From positions 1 through 41,735 of the forward strand of contig WFYB01000218.1 of the NCBI GenBank assembly GCA_015490315.1: a DNA stretch of 41,735 nucleotides, written 5' to 3'. Under the pieces are notes generated by a model. It did not search any database. It was given only the letters and a program-made list of their open reading frames with translations, and had not been told where the DNA came from. The DNA comes from Sulfurovum sp. GTDB taxonomy: Bacteria > Campylobacterota > Campylobacteria > Campylobacterales > Sulfurovaceae. Both the position numbers and the translations under genes were made by a program. Within the stretch, counting starts at the first letter, position 1. Each line of letters opens with the position of its first letter. Of the stretch, positions 3,870-8,894 are shown one piece after another.

Positions 3870-4804
3870 GGAAACCATCTTAAATGCAGCATCGCTCGGT
3901 CGATATCGTAGAGTATCTTACCGTCACTTTGTACGAGGATAAACGAGATTTCGGGATGCACCTTCAAAAACGCAAGTGCCTCAGCCGGGGGCATCACTGC
4001 TACTGCGGTGGCATAGGCATCAAGTCTGCTATTATCACCCAAAGAGATGAGTGTCACGGAGTGAAAGTGGCGCTCCGGTCTTTTGGTTTTGGGGTCGATG
4101 AGATGGTGCTCTTCGGGGCGGGTGGCATATCGCCGATAGGTTCCGGAAGTAGAGATCGCTATCTGAGGCATCCGTGTCTCTATCTGGGCAAAGAGCCCTG
4201 AAGCATAGGGCGATTCGATACCGACTTTACAGAGATCAAGACAGCGTATATCACCGCTAAGGGCAATTCTTCCGCGCGTGACATTCTGCTCGGCTAACCG
4301 TGCCGCGGCAAGATCGATGCCGTAGCCTTTGCCCATGCCGCCAAGATCGAGTGTGATATCGCTATCGGTTTGGATCGTGGAGGGCGTAATTTTGATCCCC
4401 TCGATGCGCACGGCAGCCATCCGGCGCATCCCTTCATCTACACGGCGCGGTTTCTCTCCAAAACGGTAGAGTTTTTTGGTCACAGAACCGATCGTGATAT
4501 CAAATGCCCCCTTGGTCTCCCTGTGGTAGCGTATGCTCTCAAGAAGCGCGTTGGCAAGCAGAGGATCGTAGGCGATTTTGTGAGTTGCATTGAGTCGGTA
4601 AAGCAGTGCCTTTTCATCAAAGGAGGAGAGTGCTTTCTCTGCTTTTGCGATCGCATCAAATGCATATCTTGCTTTGGCGCTGTCGGATTTGGGCAGCCAC
4701 ACAGTCGCATAGGTGCCCATCATCACACGTGTCCGAGAGGGATACTCCTGTGCAGTGAGCGGGAGCAGTGCAAGCAGGAGTGCGAGGATAAGCGTACGCA
4801 TCAC
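3755..4804 (-). CDS. apbE: FAD:protein FMN transferase (ApbE family)
   Basis: Signal peptide plus [56 protein letters not shown] motifs typical of ApbE. Confidence 0.9.
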
Positions 4805-6744
4805 TTTTTATGCCGTCTGCCTAACACCTCCACTACTCCTTTGAAATCTCTTTCGTGTCCGAAGCAGGCACTGGAGTTGCAGAGCATGAAGCCGTCATTG
4901 GTGTCGTTCTTGAAGAGACAGAAAGGGTAGGGAAGTTTGTCAAGTTGAGGGATATAGGGTGCAAGCTTCTCCTCTTTGGCTTTGATGACGATGTCATCTT
5001 TGAGATAGCGGATGACCATTTTGCTCATTTTGGGTGTGGAGATGGGCTGTCGCATCACATCGTAGGAGTGTATCTCGAGTGACTTGAAGACAAACTTTTT
5101 GTAGACTGTATCGACCAGCGAAGAGATGGAGTGCAGCACTCCGACCATCGTGGCTACCGAGGAGGGGTAGGAGCTGTCATAGATATCGGCATCGGTCTCA
5201 AACTCCCCTCGGCTGAATTTCCACTTGCCCCCGGCATAGTACCTTTCGATGGCATTGTTGGCAAGTTTGACGGCAGTGACGAGATAGTGTTCATCAAGGG
5301 TACTCTCATATGCTTCAATGAGTGCTTCACACAGATAGGCATAGTCCTCCAAAAAGGCATGGATCTTCGGTTTTTTACCGATGAGTGTGGAGTGAAAGAG
5401 TTGGGAGTTGATATACATACTCTTTAGCAGTGCCTCAAGTGAGCGTTTCGCCTCTTTGAGATAGCGTTTTTCTACCCTGCCGGCTTGAAAGAGTGAGGTG
5501 ATCATCATCGCATTCCATGAGACGATCACCTTTTTGTCTATGAAGGGATAGCTGCGTTTCTCTCTGCGTTTTTGGAGTGCTTTGATCGCTTCACTGTAGT
5601 AGGGGATCTTCTCGGTTGCGGAGGGGTCATCGACCCGGATGATGTTTTTGCCCTCGAAGTTGCCCTCTTTGGTGATATGCAGTGCCTTGGCAAGCGCTTT
5701 ATGTGCCGAGGAGGGGATCCCCTCTTTCTCAAAGGATTTGAGTGCTTTGTCGTAACTGTAGACAAAATATTTGCCCTCTTCCCCTTCTGTATCCGCATCG
5801 CTTGCGGAGTAGAAGAGGTTATCCTGTGACATCTTCTCGAGCATAAAATCAAGTGTCTCAAAACTGATCTCTTTATAAAAGTCATTGTCGGTGACATGGT
5901 AGGCTTTGAGATAGACCGAAGCGAGCAGGGCATTGTCATAGGTCATCTTCTCGAAGTGGGGGACAAGCCATTCATTATCCGTAGAGTAGCGGCAGAAGCC
6001 GCCGTCGACGATATCGCGCAGTCCACCCTTTGCCATGGAAGAGAGGGAGAGCAGCACCATATTGAGCACCTCTTTGTCGCGTGTGAGCTTATAGAGGTCG
6101 AGCAGCAGATCGAGTGTGGATGCCTGAGGGAACTTCGGAGCGGTATTGAAACCGCCATCTTTGTGATCGAAGAGCTGTTTTGCTTGCGCGATGGTGCGCG
6201 AGATGATACTCTCATCGAGCTTGGTCGCCTGTATTGTATGTTCGTTTTTGTTGAGGTGGTCGAGAATCTTCTGGGCTTCACTGACGAGTACCTCTTTTTC
6301 AGTCTTGTACTTCTCTGTGATCACTTCGAGCAGCGTGGGGAAGCTCATCATCCCGTACTTGGGTTCGGCGGGGATGTAGGTTGCTGAGTAGAAGGGTTTG
6401 AGATCATCTGTCAAGAAGATCGAGGTAGGCCAGCCGCCGGGCCGCCCGTTCATCAGCTGATAGACCTCCTGAAAGTGTTTGTCTATATCGGGACGCTCCT
6501 CACGGTCAACTTTGATCGAGACAAAGTGCTCGTTGAGGATCTTCGCGATCTCAGGATTTTCAAAACTCTCCCGCTCCATCACATGGCACCAGTGGCAAGA
6601 ACTGTATCCGATACTTAGAAAGATCGGCTTGTGTTCGTCCCGTGCTTTTTGGAATGCCTCTTCTCCCCAGGGATACCAGTCCACGGGGTTGTCAGCGTGC
6701 TGCTGCAGGTAGGGAGAGTGTTCATTTTTGAGATGATTCGCCAT
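4801..6744 (-). CDS. Thioredoxin domain-containing protein (DUF255 / YyaL / SSP411 type)
   Basis: [31 protein letters not shown]...[18 protein letters not shown] is diagnostic of the family. Confidence 0.94.
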
Positions 6745-6822
6745 TGCTTGTACCCTTTGTAAAATGTTAAACAAGTTTTGTTACTATTACACAGCTTATA
6801 CACAAATAGTACAATACAATAC

Positions 6823-7094
6823 TATAGAACCTGCTGGATACCCTAGACATTCACAATGGGTTTTGCAAATGTAAGGTTGTGCAAGAGATTTATAAGTCCT
6901 AGCCATAGCTAAGATGCAGTAAATATCTTGTGCAAAATTGCGTTTACAAAGCCCACCCGGAGGGCAACACAAGCTTTCGCCTATGCGTCGTTACTCTTTT
7001 TCGACTTAGCTACGGCTAGGGCTTCAAAAGAGTGCCTAGCCTAGACAAAAGCTTGTGATGTTGTGAACGCCTAGGGTATTCAGCGGGTTCTATA
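6823..7094. repeat. 272-bp structured palindromic element (34-bp imperfect terminal inverted repeats, two internal stem-loops)
   Basis: 6823-6856 pairs with 7061-7094 (30/34); 6857-6873/6939-6955; 6877-6892/6920-6935; 6967-7000/7026-7057 in two blocks; loop 6895-6913 complementary to loop 7005-7023 (17/19). Confidence 0.75.
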
Positions 7095-7118
7095 AATTTT
7101 AAAATAAAGAGAGCAAAA

Positions 7119-8894
7119 ATGCAAAATATCACCAAAAAGTTACTTCTTGTGAGTCTGCTTTTGAGTACCTTCCTCTTTGGGGGATTTTCCAGTGCGTTGA
7201 AGAAGCAGAAGTTTCTATCCCCTGAGGAAGCTTTCAGGGTCACAGCGGTCAAAAAAGGTGATAGTATCGAAACAGAGATCAAGATGGCAGACAAGATCCA
7301 TATCTATGAGGATGCGCTCCACTACCGTATCACGGCACCCAAAAAGGTGGAACTGAAGGTCAACAAACCCGAAGCCAAAGAGCTTGACGGTGACAAGGTC
7401 TATGAGAAAGATCTGCGTATCACGATCCCTGTAAGCCGAATCGAAAGCAAAGTGAAGGGAGACTATACGCTTGAGATAGAGTTTCAGGGGTGCTCGGATG
7501 CAGGTATCTGCTATCAGCCGATCAAAAAGCAGTTTCACTTCAAGGGAGCTAAGGCGGGATTTTTTGACAAGATAAGCAATGCGCTCAAAGAGGGCAATGC
7601 CGCCAAGATTGCCGATCTTCTCTCCAATGAGAGCGGGCTTTTCATTGTGTTTCTCTTTTTCCTTTTTGGGGTCTTTCTTTCACTGACCCCGTGTATCTTC
7701 CCTATGATTCCGATCCTCTCCTCCATTATCGTCTCGCAGCAGAAAGGAGAGGAGAAACCCAGTGTCGCGAAGGCATTTTTCACCTCACTTGTCTATGTAC
7801 TCGCTATGGCGTTGACCTATACTGTGGTGGGTGTCGTGGCGGGACTTGTCGGTGCCGATATTCAGACAGCGATGCAAAATCCGTGGGTACTGAGTGCGTT
7901 TGCGGCGATGTTTGTCGCGCTTGCCTTTTCCCTCTTTGGCTATTACGAAATAGGTCTGCCTGCTTCCTGGCAGAGTAAGTTAAGCCGTGTGAGTGACGAA
8001 GCAGGCGCGAGGGGCGGGCTGATCGGTACAGCTGTTATGGGGCTGCTCTCAGCACTGATCGTAGGTCCCTGTGTCGCGCCGCCGCTTGCGGGTGCGGTAC
8101 TCTTCATTTCTCATACGGGGGATGCGGCGCTTGGCGGGATCGCCCTGTTTGTGATGAGCCTGGGGATGGGACTGCCGTTGCTGCTTGTCGGCATCGGTGC
8201 GGGCAAATTCATGCCCAAGCCCGGGGGCTGGATGACAGCAGTCTCTCAGGCATTTGGCGTGATGATGCTTGCCCTTGCGATCTTCATGCTCTCACGTGTG
8301 CTGCCTGAGAGTGTAACGATGATGCTCTGGGCACTGCTCTTTATCGGTACGGCTCTGTATATGGGAGTCTTCGAGAGCAAGGCAGGCGAGGGGGTGATGA
8401 AGCTTTTTAGGTTGCTTGCGATGCTTTTTTTGCTCTACGGTGTGGCACTCTTTATGGGGGCACTGAGTGGGGCGGATTCGATGTTTAGGCCTTTTGAGAG
8501 ATTTACCTCCGGTACCAAATCGGCAGTAGAGAGTCCCAAGGATAAGGGGCATTTGGGATACTCGGTGGAACGTCTGATGAGAGAGGTCGAAGCCTCGGAT
8601 AAGCCGGTCGTTGTCGATTTTGGCAAGGAGTCCTGTACGGCATGTAAGGAGCTCGAGGAGATCACCTTCCCCGATCCAAAGGTCAAAGAGCAGCTCAAGA
8701 AGTTTACCTTCATTCAGATCGATCTAAGCAAAAATACCGATGCAGACAAAGCCCTGCTCAAAAAGTATGAACTCTTCGGCACTCCGAACATTATATTCTT
8801 TGACAAAAATAACCGCTATCTCCCGGAAAAAAGCCTGACAGGCTTCATCAAGCCCGAAGCGTTCGCCAAGCATCTAAAGAGTGTGGCAGATTAG
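7119..8894 (+). CDS. dsbD: Thiol:disulfide interchange protein DsbD
   Basis: N-terminal periplasmic domain, CcdA-like TM region (LTPCIFPMIPILSSII, GPCVAPPLAGA), C-terminal thioredoxin-like domain with SCTACKELE. Confidence 0.93.
   Translation: MQNITKKLLLVSLLLSTFLFGGFSSALKKQKFLSPEEAFRVTAVKKGDSIETEIKMADKIHIYEDALHYRITAPKKVELKVNKPEAKELDGDKVYEKDLRITIPVSRIESKVKGDYTLEIEFQGCSDAGICYQPIKKQFHFKGAKAGFFDKISNALKEGNAAKIADLLSNESGLFIVFLFFLFGVFLSLTPCIFPMIPILSSIIVSQQKGEEKPSVAKAFFTSLVYVLAMALTYTVVGVVAGLVGADIQTAMQNPWVLSAFAAMFVALAFSLFGYYEIGLPASWQSKLSRVSDEAGARGGLIGTAVMGLLSALIVGPCVAPPLAGAVLFISHTGDAALGGIALFVMSLGMGLPLLLVGIGAGKFMPKPGGWMTAVSQAFGVMMLALAIFMLSRVLPESVTMMLWALLFIGTALYMGVFESKAGEGVMKLFRLLAMLFLLYGVALFMGALSGADSMFRPFERFTSGTKSAVESPKDKGHLGYSVERLMREVEASDKPVVVDFGKESCTACKELEEITFPDPKVKEQLKKFTFIQIDLSKNTDADKALLKKYELFGTPNIIFFDKNNRYLPEKSLTGFIKPEAFAKHLKSVAD

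Follow-up and report, generated by a model that had tools for sequence, protein, structure and literature searches.

The intergenic element upstream of dsbD

The window analysed here is the whole 41,735-nucleotide stretch of Sulfurovum sp. DNA, and the sequence of interest lies in a divergent intergenic region in front of dsbD (7119-8894, + strand), as the initial annotation had correctly placed it, with a gene for a thioredoxin-domain-like protein, named from sequence, on the other side (4801-6774, - strand). The initial annotation described a 272-bp element composed of an outer inverted repeat and two hairpins, and its figures agreed with our recomputation: the outer repeat pairs at 30/34 with four transition-type mismatches (T.G, G.T, A.C, A.C), and the two blocks of hairpin 1 pair at 13/17 and 13/16. 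The extent, however, had to be corrected: the outermost four positions at either end (TATA) belong to the duplicated target and, being self-complementary, mimic a part of the inverted repeat. Without them, the element is 264 bp long and is positioned between TATA and TATA, with ends assigned to type B (GAACC...) (Table 1).

Miniature inverted-repeat transposable elements (MITEs) are defined by their size, terminal repeats, target duplications and the absence of coding sequence (PMC10969869, PMC3733652). With its 264 bp and 30-bp arms, the element falls within the MITE size range (70-300 bp, with terminal inverted repeats of 15-30 bp), and no ORF of at least 80 aa is present inside, in agreement with a lack of coding capacity. 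RNA folding of 6810-7105 gave -131.5 kcal/mol (z -11.95) on the + strand and -120.3 kcal/mol (z -10.2) on the - strand, values that no shuffle equalled on either strand.

Table 1. Parts of the element upstream of dsbD, with positions in the window and the basis of each assignment
Feature	Position	Strand	Basis
Left target-site duplication, TATA	6823..6826		Single TATA at empty sites of relatives
Complete 264-bp MITE with type B ends	6827..7090	+	Copies in own genome and relatives; type B copies mostly 263-265 bp; empty sites
Left terminal inverted repeat and outer stem, GAACCTGCTGGATACCCTAGACATTCACAA	6827..6856	+	Resembles ends of B-type IS5-family IS in L152/L151/L285
Hairpin 1; putative functional strand +	6857..6955	+	R1 match on - strand, 6870-6943, 19.2 bits; wobble excess on +
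Apical mini-hairpin of hairpin 1, CCTAGC-CATA-GCTAAG	6898..6913	+	Self-pairing kept over families
Junction mini stem-loop, CCC-GGA-GGG	6956..6964	+	Predicted fold; CC/GG pairs conserved in 108 copies
Hairpin 2; putative functional strand -	6965..7060	+	Repeat search and fold; A.C excess on +
Conserved 77-nt module (covariance model R1)	6975..7051	+	90.9 bits; E 6.1e-24 in genome search
Apical mini-hairpin of hairpin 2, CTTAGC-TACG-GCTAGG	7005..7020	+	Self-paired in 98.6% of cells (108 copies); double changes from C-G to A-T
Right terminal inverted repeat and outer stem	7061..7090	+	Complementary to left arm at 30/34, TATA included
Right target-site duplication, TATA	7091..7094		As for left duplication

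Dispersed copies, target duplications and matching transposases

The MITE-like nature suggested in the initial annotation was borne out by dispersed copies, target duplications, empty sites and insertion sequences (IS) with matching ends. Sequence searches detected seven copies in the own genome, and the element was found in 24 of the 60 relatives searched, nearly all of them of the same genus, with 25 and 22 matches in the closed genomes G016 and G024, respectively. Named carriers are Sulfurovum, Nitratifractor and other Campylobacterales. Aligning the copies together with their flanks revealed sharp ends. Type A copies, with ends GGGCACCTCTAATAAC, are represented by 156 copies in the fetched loci, and 144 of them measure 265-267 bp. 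According to a simple ORF rule, copies were found between divergent (24) and convergent (6) genes and, in co-directional contexts, in a 14/14 split which shows no orientation preference. The phage records searched held no copy, and the plasmid records searched contained one carrier, the 395-kb NZ_CP087125.1 of Sulfurovum mangrovi (L440), where the unannotated copy resides between the malate and isocitrate dehydrogenase genes.

Exact 4-bp direct duplications flank 87 of the 156 type A copies, compared to 12.6 expected from shuffled flanks, and 5-bp duplications were not found among these 156 copies. In type B copies, a 4-bp duplication is present in 4/23 (3.3 expected) and many fit a 2-bp TA, while type C ends are associated with 3-bp duplications in three of four copies. 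Empty sites for the window copy are provided by relatives with the conserved divergent gene pair, whose short intergenic region reads ...ATACTATAAA... in one piece. A close relative has ACTATATAAA at this site, so a 2-bp TA duplication in place of TATA may likewise be compatible with the window copy.

In regard to the source of transposition activity, IS linkage was examined for type A and type B ends. An IS of approximately 1.25-1.27 kb with type B ends is present in G024 and G022, and its transposase of 327-336 aa scores as IS5 family (NF033581; PF01609 and DUF772). More copies of this IS occur in G028 and G094, and the G024 copy is flanked by a TATT/TATT duplication. A second IS5-family transposase (NF033581), found in G081, terminates in the type A sequence GGGTTATTAGAGGTGCCC, and a decayed element of 924 bp in G024 has a type A end and an ATAT flank at either side and retains the N-terminus of a G081-type transposase. 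Autonomous IS sharing the ends of the element are represented by L152, L151, L285 and L304 for type B and by L289 and L149 for type A; an IS200-like remnant apparently splits the decayed element (L149:1325-2248). No IS5-type transposase with these ends was found in the own, incomplete genome, and DDE_Tnp_1 had no match in either the own genome or G016, so the latter, with its 25 near-identical copies, either lacks the mover or has one of a different type. A search of G016 and G024 for pairs of terminal repeats bounding an autonomous element, with one mismatch allowed, returned only the decayed 924-bp one.

For the family as a whole, the copies, the duplications, the empty sites and the IS with matching ends show mobility by IS5-type enzymes. 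The element is a non-autonomous MITE that depends on IS5-family transposases acting in trans, which recognise its terminal inverted repeats and duplicate a short AT-rich target, usually of 4 bp.

The hairpin module, its covariation and its strand

A covariance model, R1, was built from hairpin 2 and comprises 77 positions with 24 pairs. It also recognises hairpin 1, both in the window and in most loci, but on the opposite strand, and the interior of the element is therefore an inverted pair of one hairpin module of about 77 nt. Of 400 Campylobacterales genomes searched with R1, 124 contain the module, representing 33 of 87 genera, and in a phylum-wide sample, for which the order was tallied among the positives, all 66 such genomes belong to Campylobacterales. 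An order-wide DNA search disclosed relatives across numerous families that keep the layout but differ markedly in their stems. Among 133 distinct modules, paired cells amount to 89.9% versus 63.9% after shuffling and double-changed cells to 725 versus 195.7 +/- 11.6. Shuffling overstates the significance here, as the alignment was fitted to R1 and contains related rows, but slid controls reach a covariation score of just 0.06-0.10 compared to 0.54. Double changes occur with almost no one-sided intermediates, and the outer stems differ between copies with different end types yet stay complementary. Covariation speaks for selection maintaining the fold of each module.

Wobble pairs add information about the strand. 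At positions dominated by Watson-Crick pairs, single transitions give G.T or A.C equally if mutation is strand-symmetric. On the model strand, 14 G.T and 120 A.C were counted (17 columns against 2), and among 108 full elements the + strand has 107 G.T and 28 A.C in hairpin 1, and 15 G.T and 97 A.C in hairpin 2, with the model-strand and two-hairpin counts being dependent, as they represent the same module in two orientations, and uncorrected for copy kinship. The A.C excess on the + strand of hairpin 2 means a wobble excess on the - strand. Wobble is tolerated on + in hairpin 1 and on - in hairpin 2, which supports one functional strand per module, and each hairpin would consequently work as a separate folded single strand, with selection acting on RNA or DNA. 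Two observations are contrary to this: the fixed mismatches at A2 columns 19-81 and 40-64 are wobbles on the model strand, against the trend of the variable positions, and the outer stem likewise shows an A.C excess (124:58). An early reading took the near absence of wobble for a constraint purely at the DNA level, and was revised once the counts had been split by strand.

The initial annotation had also proposed a structured RNA in which the loops of both hairpins form a kissing contact. Recomputation confirmed the 17/19 complementarity between the loops, a value not attained anywhere in 200 base-shuffled versions of the 272 bp; in addition, the + fold is more stable than the - fold in 148 of 167 copies, which would suit a single structured + strand RNA. 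However, each loop forms a 6-bp mini-hairpin of its own (CTTAGC-NNNN-GCTAGG and relatives), and in hairpin 2 self-pairing is seen in 98.6% of cells across 108 copies. The closing pair of this loop changed from C-G to A-T in 18 copies with self-pairing held, and the cross partners did not follow, leaving a G.A cross pair in 17 of the 20 changed copies. In distant families, self-pairing stays at 5-6/6 where cross-complementarity drops to 8-9/16. This comparison of self-pairing with cross-pairing gave no support to a loop-loop pairing conserved by covariation, and the 17/19 match is a by-product of the palindromic motif common to the inverted copies. Moreover, wobble tolerance in hairpin 2 sits on the - strand, and with the functional senses on opposite strands one continuous RNA spanning both hairpins would contain a single hairpin in the functional orientation. 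Kissing loops within a single + strand RNA are therefore highly improbable.

Exchangeable ends and possible roles of the conserved core

Extraction of the outer inverted repeats from members across the order revealed a near-constant length of about 265-276 bp and at least six kinds of ends. Besides type A (GGGCACCTCTAA), type B (GAACCCTCTGAA) and type C (AGACTTCTTGCA), single or few examples were found of GTACCTAACC (L396), TCACTACCAGC (L404), GTTCCTATCCC (L416), AAGTCCTTAATC (L328) and the TATTACTCCACC type (L387). Elements with one module are also present, with lengths of 162-209 bp (L330, L379, L411, L397). Types A, B and C are alike in sequence and may be related to each other, and the other types look unrelated. 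As the same layout of about 265 bp is combined with at least six end sequences, the core behaves as portable between transposases and has been combined with the ends of several different ones. It is conceivable, and we propose it with some reserve, that the structured core is the true inherited unit, a strand-specific inverted hairpin pair conserved throughout the Campylobacterales that repeatedly acquired the ends of different transposases, with the length of about 265 bp maintained, owing to a function in RNA or single-stranded DNA.

Taken as a whole, the locus is very probably occupied by an IS5-mobilised MITE carrying a conserved inverted pair of strand-specific hairpins that would act as folded single strands. 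Since the modules are inverted, a transcript entering from either side would make the hairpin in its functional sense first. The module could act most likely in nascent RNA, and such an orientation-independent structure might provide a transcript end, a processing site or a shielding site, which would let an insertion beside a promoter be tolerated. This role as an RNA structure is a serious candidate, although we would not give it quite an even chance. Alternatively, the modules could be single-stranded DNA hairpins, comparable to REP/REPIN or attC, whose folded strand is recognised by a protein or by the replication machinery for mobility or maintenance. G.T is less harmful than A.C in DNA hairpins too, inverted pairs and single copies both occur, as with REP singlets and REPINs, and mismatches are conserved at fixed positions; the ends and duplications, however, fit DDE transposases, for which hairpins are unnecessary, and we regard this as a possible but less favoured explanation. 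The resemblance to integron attC sites (GCGTTA box) was considered and dropped, as the opposed boxes do not pair like R'/R'' and the ends are transposon ends.

It is also conceivable that the element is a purely selfish MITE with functionless hairpins, in which template switching during replication copies one arm onto the other and so keeps them complementary. The double changes with almost no one-sided intermediates are consistent with such copying, and a 129-bp derivative in G016 (L150, G016:C1:1311603-1311731), with two halves joined at the common apical motif, is evidence for exchange or slippage between both hairpins. Nevertheless, conserved mismatches and internal loops would not survive template switching, nor does this process produce a strand asymmetry of wobble versus A.C; it also leaves the common core in elements with different ends unexplained, which makes it an unlikely account of the hairpins.

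In comparison with MITEs moved by IS5 elements (PMC10969869), the element is likewise shorter than 300 bp and non-coding, with terminal inverted repeats, AT-rich intergenic targets, target duplications and a related IS whose ends match. The interior of a MITE is normally left over from one IS, whereas here a covarying inverted hairpin pair is common to several ends. Among IS5-family copies in the same genus, matches were found to the ends GAACCCTCTGA... and GGGCACCTCTAA... and to the short duplications, but the element has no coding capacity and no interior likeness to IS was seen. With REP/BIME/REPIN it shares extragenic palindromic units in singlets and inverted pairs, conserved mismatches and a strand-specific hairpin; in contrast to their 20-40 bp, the module has about 77-100 nt and sits between transposase-type terminal repeats. 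REP repeats of the GTAG and CGTC types, tagged palindromes of 20-40 bp, were reported in Sulfurovum NBC37-1 (PMC3733652). No terminal GTAG/CGTC tag was seen on the module of at least 77 nt, and one of those repeats might still sample a portion of the module. Correia/NEMIS, ERIC, RUP, BOX and QMITE2 (PMC10969869, PMC3733652, and partly general knowledge) are also dispersed structured non-coding repeats, some of them processed or acting as RNA, but they belong to other taxa, and the fixed length of about 265 bp with exchangeable ends is different here, their sequences being compared via Rfam only.

The Rfam scan gave no match above the gathering score, only models far below the cut-off, mostly eukaryotic miRNA, and an unrelated tRNA in one flank. 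No description of the element was found in the literature searched, in line with the initial annotation, which knew no named family with this layout. The mode of movement is known from MITEs, and the conserved, portable interior is new. It represents an abundant, apparently undescribed repeat superfamily, absent from Rfam, in an order of ecological and medical relevance, and a naturally occurring example of several transposases acting on a single structured interior. The strand-specific wobble signature offers a way to approach the question of which form of MITE hairpins, RNA or single-stranded DNA, is under selection.

Shortened forms were observed as well. In loci of G024 (L136-L149) and G016 (L131-L135), type A ends of about 15-30 bp are common as solo copies, as are 50-bp remnants lacking the core (L138, L147); they often lie just upstream of start codons and are probably deletion products of MITE insertions. 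GGGCACCTCTAATCA is present in G016 (L131, before a lysA-like ORF), G033 (C39:1900) and G035 (C5:43640), in two of the three without an element match, and may represent either an old solo end or a leader motif native to these genomes. Likewise, CTGACCTTACGCA, which flanks modules in two families (L399, L413, L394, L412), may be another IS end.
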